A model generated the notes under the pieces. It was not told where the DNA came from and made no database searches. It saw only the letters and a list, made by a program, of their open reading frames with translations. Shown piece by piece: positions 2,797-64,000 of a stretch of 64,000 bases of DNA. The position numbers were made by a program, and so were the translations under genes. Source of the stretch: Tsukamurella ocularis (GTDB lineage Bacteria > Actinomycetota > Actinomycetes > Mycobacteriales > Mycobacteriaceae); NCBI RefSeq assembly GCF_024807615.1, contig NZ_JANUCJ010000005.1:1-64000 (forward strand). Direction: 5' to 3'. Position 1 is the first letter of the stretch, and every line of letters starts with the position of its first letter.

Positions 2797-3894
2797 ATGC
2801 CACTCGCACCCGACACCCGCACGCGGGCCGCCCACGCGACGCTGCTCGTGGTGTCGGCGGCCGGCACCGTCGCGCTGGTGATGGCGCTGTTCCCCGCGCT
2901 GCGGGGCGCCGGCCTGTGGCTGGGCGCGACCGCGATGCTCGCGGCGTCCGCGGCGGTCGGGCCGCTGCGCCCCGTCGTCGCGGCGCCGGTCGTCGCGGCC
3001 GCCTGCTGCTACCTCGCGCTCGGCCCGTGGGCCGAGGCGACCGCCTCGGGTGCGGCGATCTGGGTCGCGGTGGCGGCGTCTCTCATCTCCTCGGCGGCGG
3101 CGCAGACGGCGCGGGACCGCCGCGAGGCGGTGACCGCCTTCGCCCCGTTCGTGGTCTTCGCGGCCGCCGTGGCGGCGTCCTCGCACTCCGTGTGGGGCGC
3201 GCTCGGCTCGCTGGCCCCGGTGTTCGGCGGCACGACCTTCGGGCTGGGGCTGCGGCTGCGCGACGCCCAGCGGGAGCGTCGGGCCCTCGCCGCTCGGCAG
3301 GTCCGCGCCGACGAGCGGCTCGCGCTGGCGGCCCAGCTGCACGACCTCGCGACGGCGCGCCTGACCCGGATCGTGCTCGCGGCGCGCGCGGCGGCGCAGC
3401 CCGGGATCGAGGAGGACGCGCAGGCCGCGCTCGCCGACCTGCGCCGGGTGGTGGTCGGGCTGCAGACCGCTGACGCCCCGGCCGCCCCGCTGGCGGTCAG
3501 CGGGCTCGTCGGCCCGGCCGATCTCGACGGCACCATCGCGGAGGCGGTGGTCCGGGCCCGGGACACGGGCCAGCACGTCGACCTGAGCGGGAGCGTCGCC
3601 GCGCCGCTCCCCCGCGCGAGCGCCGACTGCCTGGCCCGCGTCCTCGAGGAGGGCCTGGCGAACGCGCGCAAGCACGCGGCGGGCGCGCCGGTCGAGGTGG
3701 AGGTCACGGACCGCGGCGTGCGCGTGCACAACCTGTCGGCAGCCCCCGACCCGGCGCTCGTCGCGACCGGCAGCGGCACGGGACTGCGGGGCCTGGCGGC
3801 CCGCACCGCGCTCGTCGGCGGCACCCTCCGTCACGGCCCCTCACCCGACGGTGGCTGGACGCTGCAGGCCGACTTCCCGGCGGCCGCCCGATGA
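2797..3894 (+). CDS. sensor histidine kinase, HisKA_3/NarX type
   Basis: A 365-residue membrane sensor kinase. Residues 1 to about 150 form four to five hydrophobic segments with little extracellular loop, so it probably senses a membrane state or small molecule. The dimerisation helix carries the phospho-acceptor His182 in AQLHDLATARLTR. The ATPase domain has the N box EGLANARKHA (Asn289) and the G box GSGTGLRGL near residue 325. It overlaps the response regulator by four bases (ATGA), so the pair should act together. The third gene of the unit is a lycopene cyclase. The ATG is chosen because it follows TACGAT by six bases. Confidence 0.9.
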   Translation: MPLAPDTRTRAAHATLLVVSAAGTVALVMALFPALRGAGLWLGATAMLAASAAVGPLRPVVAAPVVAAACCYLALGPWAEATASGAAIWVAVAASLISSAAAQTARDRREAVTAFAPFVVFAAAVAASSHSVWGALGSLAPVFGGTTFGLGLRLRDAQRERRALAARQVRADERLALAAQLHDLATARLTRIVLAARAAAQPGIEEDAQAALADLRRVVVGLQTADAPAAPLAVSGLVGPADLDGTIAEAVVRARDTGQHVDLSGSVAAPLPRASADCLARVLEEGLANARKHAAGAPVEVEVTDRGVRVHNLSAAPDPALVATGSGTGLRGLAARTALVGGTLRHGPSPDGGWTLQADFPAAAR

Positions 3895-59591: not shown

Positions 59592-61570
59592 GCGCCGTCG
59601 GTGCGCAGGCCGTCGAGCACTGTGCGGGCCGTCGTCATCCCGATCCCGGGCACCTCCACGATCTCCTCGAGGCTGGCCCCGCGGAGCTTGGTGACCGAGC
59701 CGAAGTGCTGCAGCAGCGCGGTCTTGCGGGTGTCACCGAGGCCGGGAATCGCATCGAGGGCGCTCGCGGTCATCCGCTTGGACCGCTTGCTGCGGTGGAA
59801 GGAGATCGCGAACCGGTGCGCCTCGTCACGCACCCGCTGCAGGAGGAACAGCGCATCCGAGCTGCGCGGCAGGATCACCGGGTCCTCGTCGCCGGGGACC
59901 CACACCTCCTCGAGCCGCTTGGCGAGCCCCACCACTGCCACGTCGGTCACGCCGAGCTCGTCCAGCACTTCCTGCGCGGCGGCGGCCTGGGGAGCCCCAC
60001 CGTCGACTACGAAGAGGTTGGGCGGGTACGCGAACCGTCGGGGGCGCCCCGTCTGTGGGTCGAGCGCTGCCTCCGGGGCGAGGTCTCCCCCGTTGTCGTC
60101 TCCGTCGGCATCCTCGACCTTCCGGGCGTCCGCGCGGTGGCGGAGAAAGCGGCGTCGGGTGACCTCGGCGATCGACGCGACGTCATCGCTGTGGCCGTCG
60201 CCCGCGGCTTCCTTGATCCCGTAGTGCCGGTAGTCGGACTTCTTCGCCAGTCCGTCCTCGAAGACCACGAGGGAGGCCACCACGTCGGAGCCCTGGATGT
60301 GGCTGATGTCGACGCACTCGATGCGCAGGGGCGCCTCGTCGAGATCCAGCGCGTCCTGCAGTCCCTGTAGCGCCGCCGAGCGGGCCGTGAGGTCCCCCGA
60401 GCGTTTGAGCTTGTGCTGGTGCAGGGCCTCGATGGCGTTGCGCTCCACCGTCTCCATGAGGGTGCGTTTGTCGCCGCGCTGCGGAATGCGCAGCGAGACC
60501 CGGGCTCCGCGCAACCCGGTGAGCCAGTCCTGCAGCTCGTCCGCGTCGTCCGGCAGCACCGGCACGAGGACCTCGCGCGGCACGGGATTGACCGCACCGT
60601 CGCCCGACTGCTCAGCGCGCTCGACCTCCTCGCCGTAGAACTGGGTGACGAACTGCTCCAGCAGCTCGGCGTGCTCGTTCTGCTCCGCGTCTCCCGGTTT
60701 TTCGACGACCCAGCCGCGCTGCCCGCGGACGCGGCCACCGCGGACGTGGAAGATCTGCACGGCGGCCTCGAGCTCGTCGGCGGAGAACGCGATGACGTCG
60801 GCGTCGGTACCGTCGCCGAGCACCACGGCCTGCTTCTCGACGGCCTTGCGCAGGGCCGCCACGTCGTCACGCAGGCGCGCGGCCCGCTCGAAGTCGAGGT
60901 CCTCGCTGGCGGAGAGCATATCGTTCTCGAGTTGTTTGACGAGGTTGTCGGTCTTGCCGGCGAGGAAGTCGCAGAAGTCCTCGACGATCTGTCGGTGCTC
61001 CGTGGCCGTGACCCGCCCGACGCACGGCGCGGAGCACTTGTCGATGTAGCCCAGCAGGCACGGACGGCCCATCTGGTTGTGCCGCTTGAAGACCCCCGCC
61101 GAGCAGGTGCGGGCCGGGAAGACCCGCAGGAGCAGGTCGAGCGTCTCGCGGATGGCCCAGGCGTGGCTGTAGGGGCCGAAGTAGCGCACGCCCTTGCGCC
61201 GCGGGCCGCGGTAGACGTACAGCCTCGGGTACTCCTCGTTGAGAGTGACCGCGAGCATCGGGTACGTCTTGTCGTCCCGGTAGCGGACGTTGAACTGCGG
61301 GTCGAACTCCTTGATCCAGTTGTACTCGAGTTGGAGGGCCTCGACCTCGGTGCCCACGACGGTCCACTCGACGGACGCCGCGGTCGTGACCATCTGGTAG
61401 GTCCGCGGGTGCAGGCCGAAGACGTCGGCGAAGTAGGAGTTCAGGCGGCTACGCAGCGACTTCGCCTTGCCGACGTAGATGACGCGGCCGTGCTTGTCCC
61501 GGAACTTGTACACGCCGGGCTGCGTGGGGATGGTGCCCGGTGCGGGACGGTAACTCTGCGGATCGGCCAC
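59588..61570 (-). CDS. uvrC: excinuclease UvrC
   Basis: Nuclease subunit of nucleotide excision repair, making both cuts around the lesion, 660 residues. The N-terminal GIY-YIG domain (about 10-95) reads [24 protein letters not shown] motif ([16 protein letters not shown]) binds UvrB. The RNase H-like domain begins [20 protein letters not shown], and the last 70 residues are a tandem helix-hairpin-helix ([20 protein letters not shown]). It normally lies directly upstream of rapZ in this order; here it is followed by the ArsB-like permease. Confidence 0.97.
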
Positions 61571-61623
61571 CCTTCCAGATTAGGACGGGCGGCCGACAAG
61601 TTCGGGTGCGGGCGGGCCGAGGT

Positions 61624-61974
61624 TCAACCGATGGGGATCCAGATCGGCCCGATCCAGAAGCCCCAGTGGTTGCGCCCCTGGTCCCAGACCGGGGTGTGCC
61701 AGGCACCCTGCCGGTAGACGGGCCCGGGCCGCCAGTTCGGGTTCTGCCCGTTCGGCCGCGGTGCGACCTGGCGGGGCACCTGGTTCGGTGCCGGCCGGGC
61801 GGCCGGCTGCGGCGTGGGCCTCGCGGCGGGGCGAGCGCCCTGCCCGACGCCCGGGGCACCGGGCTGGCCGGGATTCGGCGCCGCGGCGGCGGTGCCGGCG
61901 CCGACGGTGGCGACACCGCCGACCGCGGTGGCGCCGAGGAGTGCGGATCCGATCATCTTCTTCATCGTCGTCAT
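61624..61974 (-). CDS. small secreted Pro-rich protein with tryptophan-rich end
   Basis: A 116-residue exported protein of unknown function. A signal peptide (MTTMKKMIGSALLGATAVGG through AAAAP, about 1-32) precedes a Pro/Ala/Arg/Gln-rich disordered stretch. The C-terminal 30 residues, WRPGPVYRQGAWHTPVWDQG followed by WGFWIGPIWIPIG, are rich in Trp and aromatic residues and may insert in or bind the envelope. Such short Trp-tail proteins recur in mycolic-acid actinobacteria without known function. It lies between uvrC and the zinc-finger gene on the same strand. Confidence 0.75.
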   Translation of the reverse strand: MTTMKKMIGSALLGATAVGGVATVGAGTAAAAPNPGQPGAPGVGQGARPAARPTPQPAARPAPNQVPRQVAPRPNGQNPNWRPGPVYRQGAWHTPVWDQGRNHWGFWIGPIWIPIG

Positions 61975-62039
61975 ACGAGAAGCCTGACCGCCGCACCTGC
62001 GCGCCGGCGTGGGACGGCCTGCGCGTTCGCTGGGACTCG

Positions 62040-63242
62040 TCAGGCGGTCACCGTGGGCTCGGCGGCGCTCCCGGCAGGACGACGGGGCGCGCGGGGACGC
62101 CGCGGGACCATGCTGCGCGAGGCGAGCAGGTCGTCGGCGGCCAGGCCGAACCGGCGGCGGTAGGCCTCCGCATCGATGCTGTGCACACCGAGGTGCGGGA
62201 CGAGCATCGCCACCCACAATCCGCACAGGTGACACTGGACCCGGTCGCCGTCGTCCTCCAGCCGTCCCGCGCACGAGCGCAACAGGTCGCCGAGGGCATC
62301 GACGTAGTCGTCGTGCGCCGCCATCCGGTCCACGAACTCGGCGACCCGCTGGTCCGTGGCGTCTATACGGGTGCGGAACTGCGACGGGCTCAGGTGCTCG
62401 AGGACGCTTCGGCGCAGCTCGAGGTAGTGGTCGAGCAGTCCCTCTCGCTCCATCGCGTGCTCGAAGGCGGTGCGCGGGGCGGCATGCCCGTCGTGCTCGG
62501 TCCGGGCGCCCCACCGCGCCCGCGTGCGGGCGGGGCCGCGCCGCCCGCTGATCCGGCCGTGAGCGGCGACGTGGTTGTCGACGCTCGCGAACCACAGCCC
62601 GCATGCCGGGCACTGTTTGAGCGCGCCGCCGGGGGCGCTGACGGGGGACGGCACGGTGAACGCCGTCGGGTCGTGGCTCCACGCGTCGATGATCGCAACC
62701 GTCACCGACGCGGCATCGGTGCCCACGCGGTCCGCGAGCCGGCTCGGCCCGAGACCGTTGGCGGCGGCCCAGTTGGCGGCCTCGGCCCAGCTGCCCCAGG
62801 GCGCATCCGGGGGCAGTTCGGTCAACGGGACTCCACGGCCCGGCGGCGGGGCATCCGATGAGCGTTCCAGGGCGTTCGGAGAGGCCCGTGGGTGTAAGGG
62901 TCGACCGCTCTGCCGCAACGGTTCGACGGCCCGCTGCCGGTTGGGGTGCCGAGGGCGGGGCGCAGAGGAGCGCTGACGACCCCGACGGTGCACGACGCGG
63001 TGCGCCTCGACGTCCGAGAACCAGATCCCGCACTCGGGACACTGCTCGACGCCAACCGGCGGCACGGTGGCGGGCGGCCGGGTGAACAGGTCGGGGAACC
63101 GCGTCCACTCGTCGGCGATGGCCAGCAGAGCGTCGATCCGGCTGACCCCTTCGCGCTGCGCGATCGCGCCCACGCCGAAGCCGCCGGCCGCCGCCCAATT
63201 AGCAGCGGCGACCCAGCGTGGACCGTGAGACTGCTCGGGCAT
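62040..63242 (-). CDS. triple CxxC zinc-finger protein with duplicated module and MucR-like end
   Basis: A 400-residue protein built of repeats. Module A (about 9-85) and module B (about 148-228) share WxxAANWAAAxGxG, then a helical stretch with an [AI]DxW step and a Pro-rich hinge, and end in finger QCPECGIWFSDVEAHRVVH (A) or QCPACGLWFASVDNHVAAH (B). A third finger, VQCHLCGLWVAMLVPHLGVH, is followed by DAEAYRRRFGLAADDL, the pattern of MucR/Ros zinc-finger regulators. Arg-rich linkers separate the modules. No named family covers the whole protein. A nucleic-acid-binding role is the most likely reading. The start has only a weak ribosome site (GAAAG). Confidence 0.8.
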   Translation of the reverse strand: MPEQSHGPRWVAAANWAAAGGFGVGAIAQREGVSRIDALLAIADEWTRFPDLFTRPPATVPPVGVEQCPECGIWFSDVEAHRVVHRRGRQRSSAPRPRHPNRQRAVEPLRQSGRPLHPRASPNALERSSDAPPPGRGVPLTELPPDAPWGSWAEAANWAAANGLGPSRLADRVGTDAASVTVAIIDAWSHDPTAFTVPSPVSAPGGALKQCPACGLWFASVDNHVAAHGRISGRRGPARTRARWGARTEHDGHAAPRTAFEHAMEREGLLDHYLELRRSVLEHLSPSQFRTRIDATDQRVAEFVDRMAAHDDYVDALGDLLRSCAGRLEDDGDRVQCHLCGLWVAMLVPHLGVHSIDAEAYRRRFGLAADDLLASRSMVPRRPRAPRRPAGSAAEPTVTA

Positions 63243-63262
63243 GTCTTTCAGAATGCATCATT

Positions 63263-63287
63263 GTGTCAACCCCAGGTGTTCTGACAC
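63263..63287. promoter_or_regulatory. inverted repeat upstream of the zinc-finger gene
   Basis: GTGTCA-N13-TGACAC lies 21-45 bases before the zinc-finger start and just after the end of the next gene upstream. It could be an operator or part of a terminator. The spacing suits two major-groove contacts about two turns apart. Confidence 0.35.
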
Positions 63288-63301
63288 GCCTGTCCGAGTC
63301 T

Positions 63302-64000
<699 letters not shown>

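Follow-up and report, generated by a model that had tools for sequence, protein, structure and literature searches.

The Ros/MucR family (PF05443) includes Ros of Agrobacterium and MucR of Brucella and Sinorhizobium. A review calls this family "widespread", and its main text contains no word starting with "Actinobact" (PMC9779718). The Ros/MucR proteins were placed in the alphaproteobacteria, where their bridging of DNA depends on oligomerisation (PMC11662661). MucR2 and MucR3 were described as binding DNA without bridging it (PMC13297338). Members typically have a single finger in about 140–150 residues. Ros has 142 residues and uses His92 and His97 (PMC7283297). No actinobacterial multi-finger MucR-type protein was described in the titles or abstract beginnings of the open-licence papers that literature searches listed.

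The window analysed in this study, a stretch of 64,000 nucleotides of Tsukamurella ocularis (positions 1 to 64,000 of contig NZ_JANUCJ010000005.1), contains an open reading frame (ORF) that starts with ATG on the minus strand, lies where the original prediction had placed it (62040–63242) and encodes a protein of 400 amino acid residues. Its features are listed below.

62040..63242, minus strand: zinc-finger gene, probably of three units (9 of 16 genomes of the genus; purifying selection)
62988..63215, minus strand: module 1, predicted three-helix domain, hinge and C2H2 finger (model pLDDT 90.8, pTM 0.80)
62802..62984, minus strand: variable Arg/Pro-rich linker, about residues 87–147 (pN/pS 0.69 for residues 93–147)
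62559..62789, minus strand: module 2, near-invariant helical domain and finger (finger pN/pS 0.012)
62142..62465, minus strand: unit 3, probable diverged helical domain, Ros/MucR-type finger and YRRRFGL (PF05443, hhalign, Ros 2jsp)
63263..63287, minus strand: conserved element GTGTCA-N13-TGACAC, possible operator or promoter (upstream alignment)

Repeat units and comparison with Ros/MucR

In modules 1 and 2 (residues ~10–85 and 152–228), a helical part that contains AANWAAA is followed by a hinge and then by a CX2CX9HX3H finger. Their local alignment scored 183, while 1000 shuffles averaged 27.4 and never exceeded 51, which bears out the proposed duplication. The predicted Cys/His patterns are also genuine. 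The ligands of fingers 1, 2, and 3 are C68/C71/H81/H85, C211/C214/H224/H228, and C337/C340/H350/H354, respectively, all with the spacing CX2CX9HX3H; the 12 residues are invariant in a six-row alignment, and all three patterns are present in 9/9 orthologues. YRRRFGL is found downstream of finger 3 only, and the nine orthologues all have the unit 3 pattern and retain the Y and the final L of YRxxxxL. Similar to C2H2 zinc fingers, these fingers possess a pair of Cys and a pair of His residues at the expected spacing and, in the model of module 1, a beta-beta-alpha fold. We infer that they bind zinc, the model being one without metal.

The original prediction could not name this architecture, and no full-length match to a named family was found in Pfam, PHROGs, NCBIfam, or PADLOC. 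PHROGs and NCBIfam gave weak matches only, and the copy of T. tyrosinosolvens is annotated in RefSeq as a hypothetical protein. In Pfam, the whole protein scored 26.1 against zf-C2H2_4, just below the cut-off of 27, and residues 333–382 matched PF05443 (ROS_MUCR) with 22.0 bits (E 1.8e-4), below the cut-off of 25.4. Because the latter match covers only positions 63–113 of the 123 profile positions, the N-terminal oligomerisation region of PF05443 (positions 1–62) is not seen in the 400-residue protein. When the profile of unit 3 was compared with known structures, the best of the seven matches, itself weak, was the DNA-binding domain of Ros (2jsp, E 0.011).

Similar to the Ros/MucR proteins, finger 3 is of the form CX2CX9HX3H followed by YRxxxxL, and it aligns weakly with Ros 2jsp. 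Different from Ros, however, with its single finger and its His92/His97 pair, the window protein has 400 residues and three fingers of the H-X3-H type, and it falls below the Pfam cut-off with profile positions 1–62 unmatched. Moreover, the MucR proteins of alphaproteobacteria make several contacts through ring formation, whereas the window protein carries its repeated units on one chain.

Predicted fold and the third helical unit

The AlphaFold2 model of the full protein, made from six sequences, was poor (mean pLDDT 50.5). In this model three helices precede each of fingers 1 and 2, four helices precede finger 3 and a low-confidence helix at residues 358–365 follows finger 3. Module 1 alone (14 rows) was modelled with a pLDDT of 90.8 and a pTM of 0.80 as helices 2–12, 16–23, and 27–40, two short strands and helix 70–83, i.e., a three-helix bundle before the finger. 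Foldseek found no match at E ≤ 0.001 in PDB or BFVD. The top PDB matches, which were non-significant, include ScpB, MarR-family regulators and DNA polymerases. Given that the helices are predicted but no Foldseek match is significant, the helical domain is likely, and no more firmly than that, a helix-turn-helix.

The protein had been described as two modules plus a lone finger. The third finger is indeed of the Ros/MucR type with YRRRFGL, but it is probably preceded by a diverged helical domain of its own, which would give three helix-plus-finger units. Direct hhalign comparison of the segment before finger 3 with the helical domain shared by the two modules revealed no relationship (probability 0.9%). 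A profile of two units from paralogues, however, was matched by the helical profile of modules 1 and 2 (probability 94.3%, E 9.8e-8) as well as by that of unit 3 (95.7%, E 1.1e-8), and both forms meet it in a consistent register. The probable homology of unit 3 to the helical module thus becomes visible only through the paralogues. As these E-values are from single comparisons of thin profiles, of which the paralogue profile has two rows, the evidence for three units is good but short of conclusive.

One paralogue is a second three-finger gene of T. spumae (contig L022, 7046–9667), which lies beyond the same AMP-ligase gene and encodes 873 residues. Similar to the window protein, it has three fingers, and the identity between its first unit and module 1 is 47%. 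Different from the window protein, it is more than twice as long, contains extra helical-looking segments and is found on the opposite side of the ligase gene. It passes PF05443 with 35.1 bits against the cut-off of 25.4. Its third helical unit matched HTH_23 at E 1.3e-4 with 22.1 bits, below the cut-off of 24.6, and when scanned alone reached only E 0.014; the remaining 13 module rows gave no HTH_23 match. A possible resemblance of paralogue segments to helicase-associated domains was set aside, Pfam giving no such match at E ≤ 1.

Selection

The pN/pS values given here are means over nine orthologues (36 pairs). The value for the whole gene was 0.34. Those for helices and finger were 0.25 and 0.20 in module 1, 0.086 and 0.012 in module 2, and 0.36 and 0.37 in unit 3, respectively, while the linker reached 0.69 and the tail 0.72. 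Among the nine orthologues, 24 of the 25 positions of finger 2 are invariant, compared with 4 of the 55 positions of linker residues 93–147. Selection on the gene is therefore purifying and is extreme on finger 2; the strictest constraint falls on module 2, not on the MucR-like finger. Given this purifying selection, the possibility that the ORF arose by chance or by overprinting was rejected.

Distribution and genomic locus

The whole protein was matched in 9 of 41 genomes, these nine all belonging to Tsukamurella, and the module profile in 9 of 16 Tsukamurella genomes. The named carriers are Tsukamurella sp. M9C, T. conjunctivitidis, T. sputi, T. asaccharolytica, T. spumae, and T. tyrosinosolvens. 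In 9/9 carriers the gene is located between the AMP-ligase gene and uvrC. In five other genomes the matches to these two genes are ~70–490 bases apart and the gene is absent; in a sixth they are ~1.1 kb apart, and in a seventh uvrC is on a 5.2-kb contig that has no ligase match. On a uvrC tree in which 4 of 13 inner branches were well supported, the presence pattern required 4 changes (shuffled mean 5.5); clustering was non-significant, since 76 of 500 shuffles were as low. Our own reading is a single gain inside a 12-row group (support 88/90) followed by losses. One of the five empty sites, that of genome G001, looks like a loss of the gene, because the upstream element is kept and the match ends about four bases short of the start codon, beyond which the gene is missing.

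A sequence of 249,745 bases labelled as plasmid 5 of T. tyrosinosolvens (NZ_LR134447.1) has uvrC and the finger gene arranged as in the other carriers and is, for this reason, probably a mislabelled piece of chromosome. A degraded module copy with in-frame stops is found at ~3087–3356 of another contig (L025, C32 of genome G002). A small gene (61624–61974, minus strand) that lies between uvrC and the finger gene encodes a secreted-looking, Pro-rich product ending in WGFWIGPIWIPIG; a similar frame was readable by eye in three of the five genomes with an empty site (G008, G009, and G012). A 257-residue neighbour outside the window was rejected as a further relative, as it had no Pfam match and no finger on reading.

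The conserved upstream element has both halves at a spacing of 13 in 7 of 10 upstream sequences (by eye), which disfavours a strict palindrome. In G015 and G013 one half of the palindrome is broken, and in G004 the spacer is 12. With up to three mismatches, the copy at 63263..63287 is the sole match in its genome, and the reversed control pattern also had one; with a single genomic copy the element implies no regulon and was rejected as a regulon motif. No sigma-70-like promoter was found in 61500–63500. The two-half element is absent within 400 bases upstream of the 873-residue paralogue and of a 376-residue paralogue, while the stretch TGACACGATG at the start of the 873-residue ORF resembles the right end of the element. 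The element is possibly an operator or promoter.

Relatives and mobile DNA

The unit 3 profile was matched in at least 9 of 298 genomes of the order, two of them Tsukamurella, and in at least 3 of 396 genomes of the phylum, the own genome included; the module profile was matched in at least 5 of 397 genomes of the order, three of them Tsukamurella and two by the finger part only. These tallies are lower bounds, with 12–16 candidates scored per genome. Frames were read for six of the nine places outside Tsukamurella that the unit 3 profile matched in the order (L046, L047, L049, L052, L054, and L056), and L048, L050, and L051 were left uncounted. ROS_MUCR was matched in 4 of 246 genomes of the class (own included), two of them above the cut-off, and in 1 of 14 control genomes, Caulobacter.

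The lengths of relatives whose frames were read ranged from 189 to 873 residues, excluding one broken frame (L122). Among seven proteins scanned, the window protein and the 873-residue protein contained three fingers each and the other five one each. Similar to the window protein, the single-finger actinobacterial relatives (e.g., L046, L052, L047, L104, WP_143533739 of Rubrobacter, and gp29 of Gordonia phage Finkle) combine a Ros/MucR-type finger with helical or HTH-like segments; different from it, they have one such finger each and another order of finger and helices. Further helical or HTH-like segments were seen by eye in some relatives, and L047 passes HTH_3 (23.2 against 23 bits).

The relatives are in part on or beside mobile DNA: several are, and some are not. 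In the T. ocularis genome, the 376-residue paralogue (C1:1075063) is flanked on one side by ParA, primase-like (26.9, cut-off 27) and AbiEi-type genes, and on the other by MspA and hydrolase genes. One relative adjoins a tyrosine integrase gene, another adjoins IS3 genes near an SNF2-type helicase gene, and a third is on a contig of 94,790 bases with a relaxase. Relatives are also found on plasmid 3 of Rubrobacter radiotolerans and, as gp29, in phage Finkle. For a further relative, the single neighbour scanned was a cyanate lyase gene, and the two scanned neighbours of yet another gave one weak ParA-type match under the cut-off. One more finger gene (L107) seems, by eye, to lie near metal-ABC-transporter-like genes. 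Searched against phages with tblastn, the whole protein had one weak match (Microbacterium phage SadLad, E 0.2), and a paralogue segment matched a single phage, Finkle, in two records (E 4e-3). Close relatives in viral contigs were a rejected candidate: two scans gave 130 and 3 pattern stretches, of which none was confirmed.

Possible function

We propose, with a probability of roughly one half, that the 400-residue protein is an accessory multi-contact regulator, most likely DNA-binding, that was captured from the Ros/MucR-finger proteins of mobile elements. Its ancestors would have been proteins of the kind often carried by plasmids, phages and integrative elements of actinobacteria. A helix-plus-finger unit would have been duplicated to give three linked units on one polypeptide, so that one chain could reach several sites or a single long one. 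An ancestor of Tsukamurella would have captured the gene between the AMP-ligase gene and uvrC, and at least one species (G001) would have lost it again. With its own conserved upstream element, the gene may regulate itself. We infer DNA binding, contact with several sites, self-regulation and this direction of transfer. A regulator is the most likely reading given the duplication, the conservation of ligands, the predicted fold of module 1, the PF05443 and HTH_23 matches of the 873-residue paralogue, the alignment with Ros 2jsp, the mobile relatives, the empty sites and the selection. No DNA target was found for the 400-residue protein. Also counting against this reading are the low positive charge of the folded segments, the sub-threshold PF05443 score, the weak HTH_23 match of the isolated paralogue unit, the lack of significant Foldseek matches, the poor full-length model, the single genomic copy of the upstream element, the non-significant clustering on the uvrC tree and the relatives outside mobile DNA.

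The main rival, on account of folded units that are neutral or acidic, is that the units, above all the near-invariant module 2, are protein–protein modules that contact RNA polymerase, a nucleoid protein or the protein itself, with DNA contact being minor or made through the linkers or unit 3. The calculated pI of the protein is 8.6, with a single lysine. The basic charge is confined to the linkers and tail (+8 in residues 86–147, +6 in residues 229–257 and +4 in the tail), while the net charges are 0, −3, and −8 for the helical segments of units 1–3 and −3, 0, and 0 for fingers 1–3, respectively. Helix 3 of module 2 (residues 177–190), read from the sequence, is without Lys or Arg. Finger 2 is, moreover, held more strictly than the most Ros-like finger, finger 3 (0.012 and 0.37). 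Against this rival, the closest solved finger structure is that of Ros, which binds DNA, and the paralogue unit matched HTH_23 just below the cut-off. Because the folded units carry little charge and module 2 is so strictly constrained, a protein scaffold is kept as a possible, though clearly less probable, role. The same neutral to acidic units weaken the original suggestion that the modules read a DNA array or bring several sites together. A bridging regulator turned around, in which Ros/MucR-type units were strung together by duplication, make several DNA contacts without rings, and passed from a plasmid or phage into the host, is unlikely.

Still more doubtful is a reading of the gene as the passenger or leftover of a mobile island for defence or conflict, for instance an accessory to a restriction locus, that has no regulatory function of its own. 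The T. spumae contig of the 873-residue gene also carries an HsdR-like gene, the 376-residue paralogue adjoins the AbiEi-type gene, and another relative is near the SNF2-type helicase and IS3 genes. However, other ORFs intervene between the HsdR-like gene and the 873-residue gene, filing with a defence system was rejected as PADLOC matched 0 of 3 proteins, 9/9 carriers have the gene flanked by the ligase gene and uvrC (immediate flanks only), and the strong purifying constraint disfavours a passenger. Finally, a classical Ros/MucR silencer of AT-rich DNA, simply enlarged, would account for the finger of unit 3 with YR...GL and its PF05443 match, but it is very improbable for a protein of 400 residues and three fingers in which that match is partial and below the cut-off.

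As an accessory multi-contact regulator, the protein would be a tandem actinobacterial relative of Ros/MucR under strong selection, with which it may be asked whether covalently repeated units can stand in for oligomers and how the tasks are divided among the units. To our knowledge, multi-finger C2H2 proteins are usually regarded as eukaryotic, and a bacterial one would thus be a useful test case.
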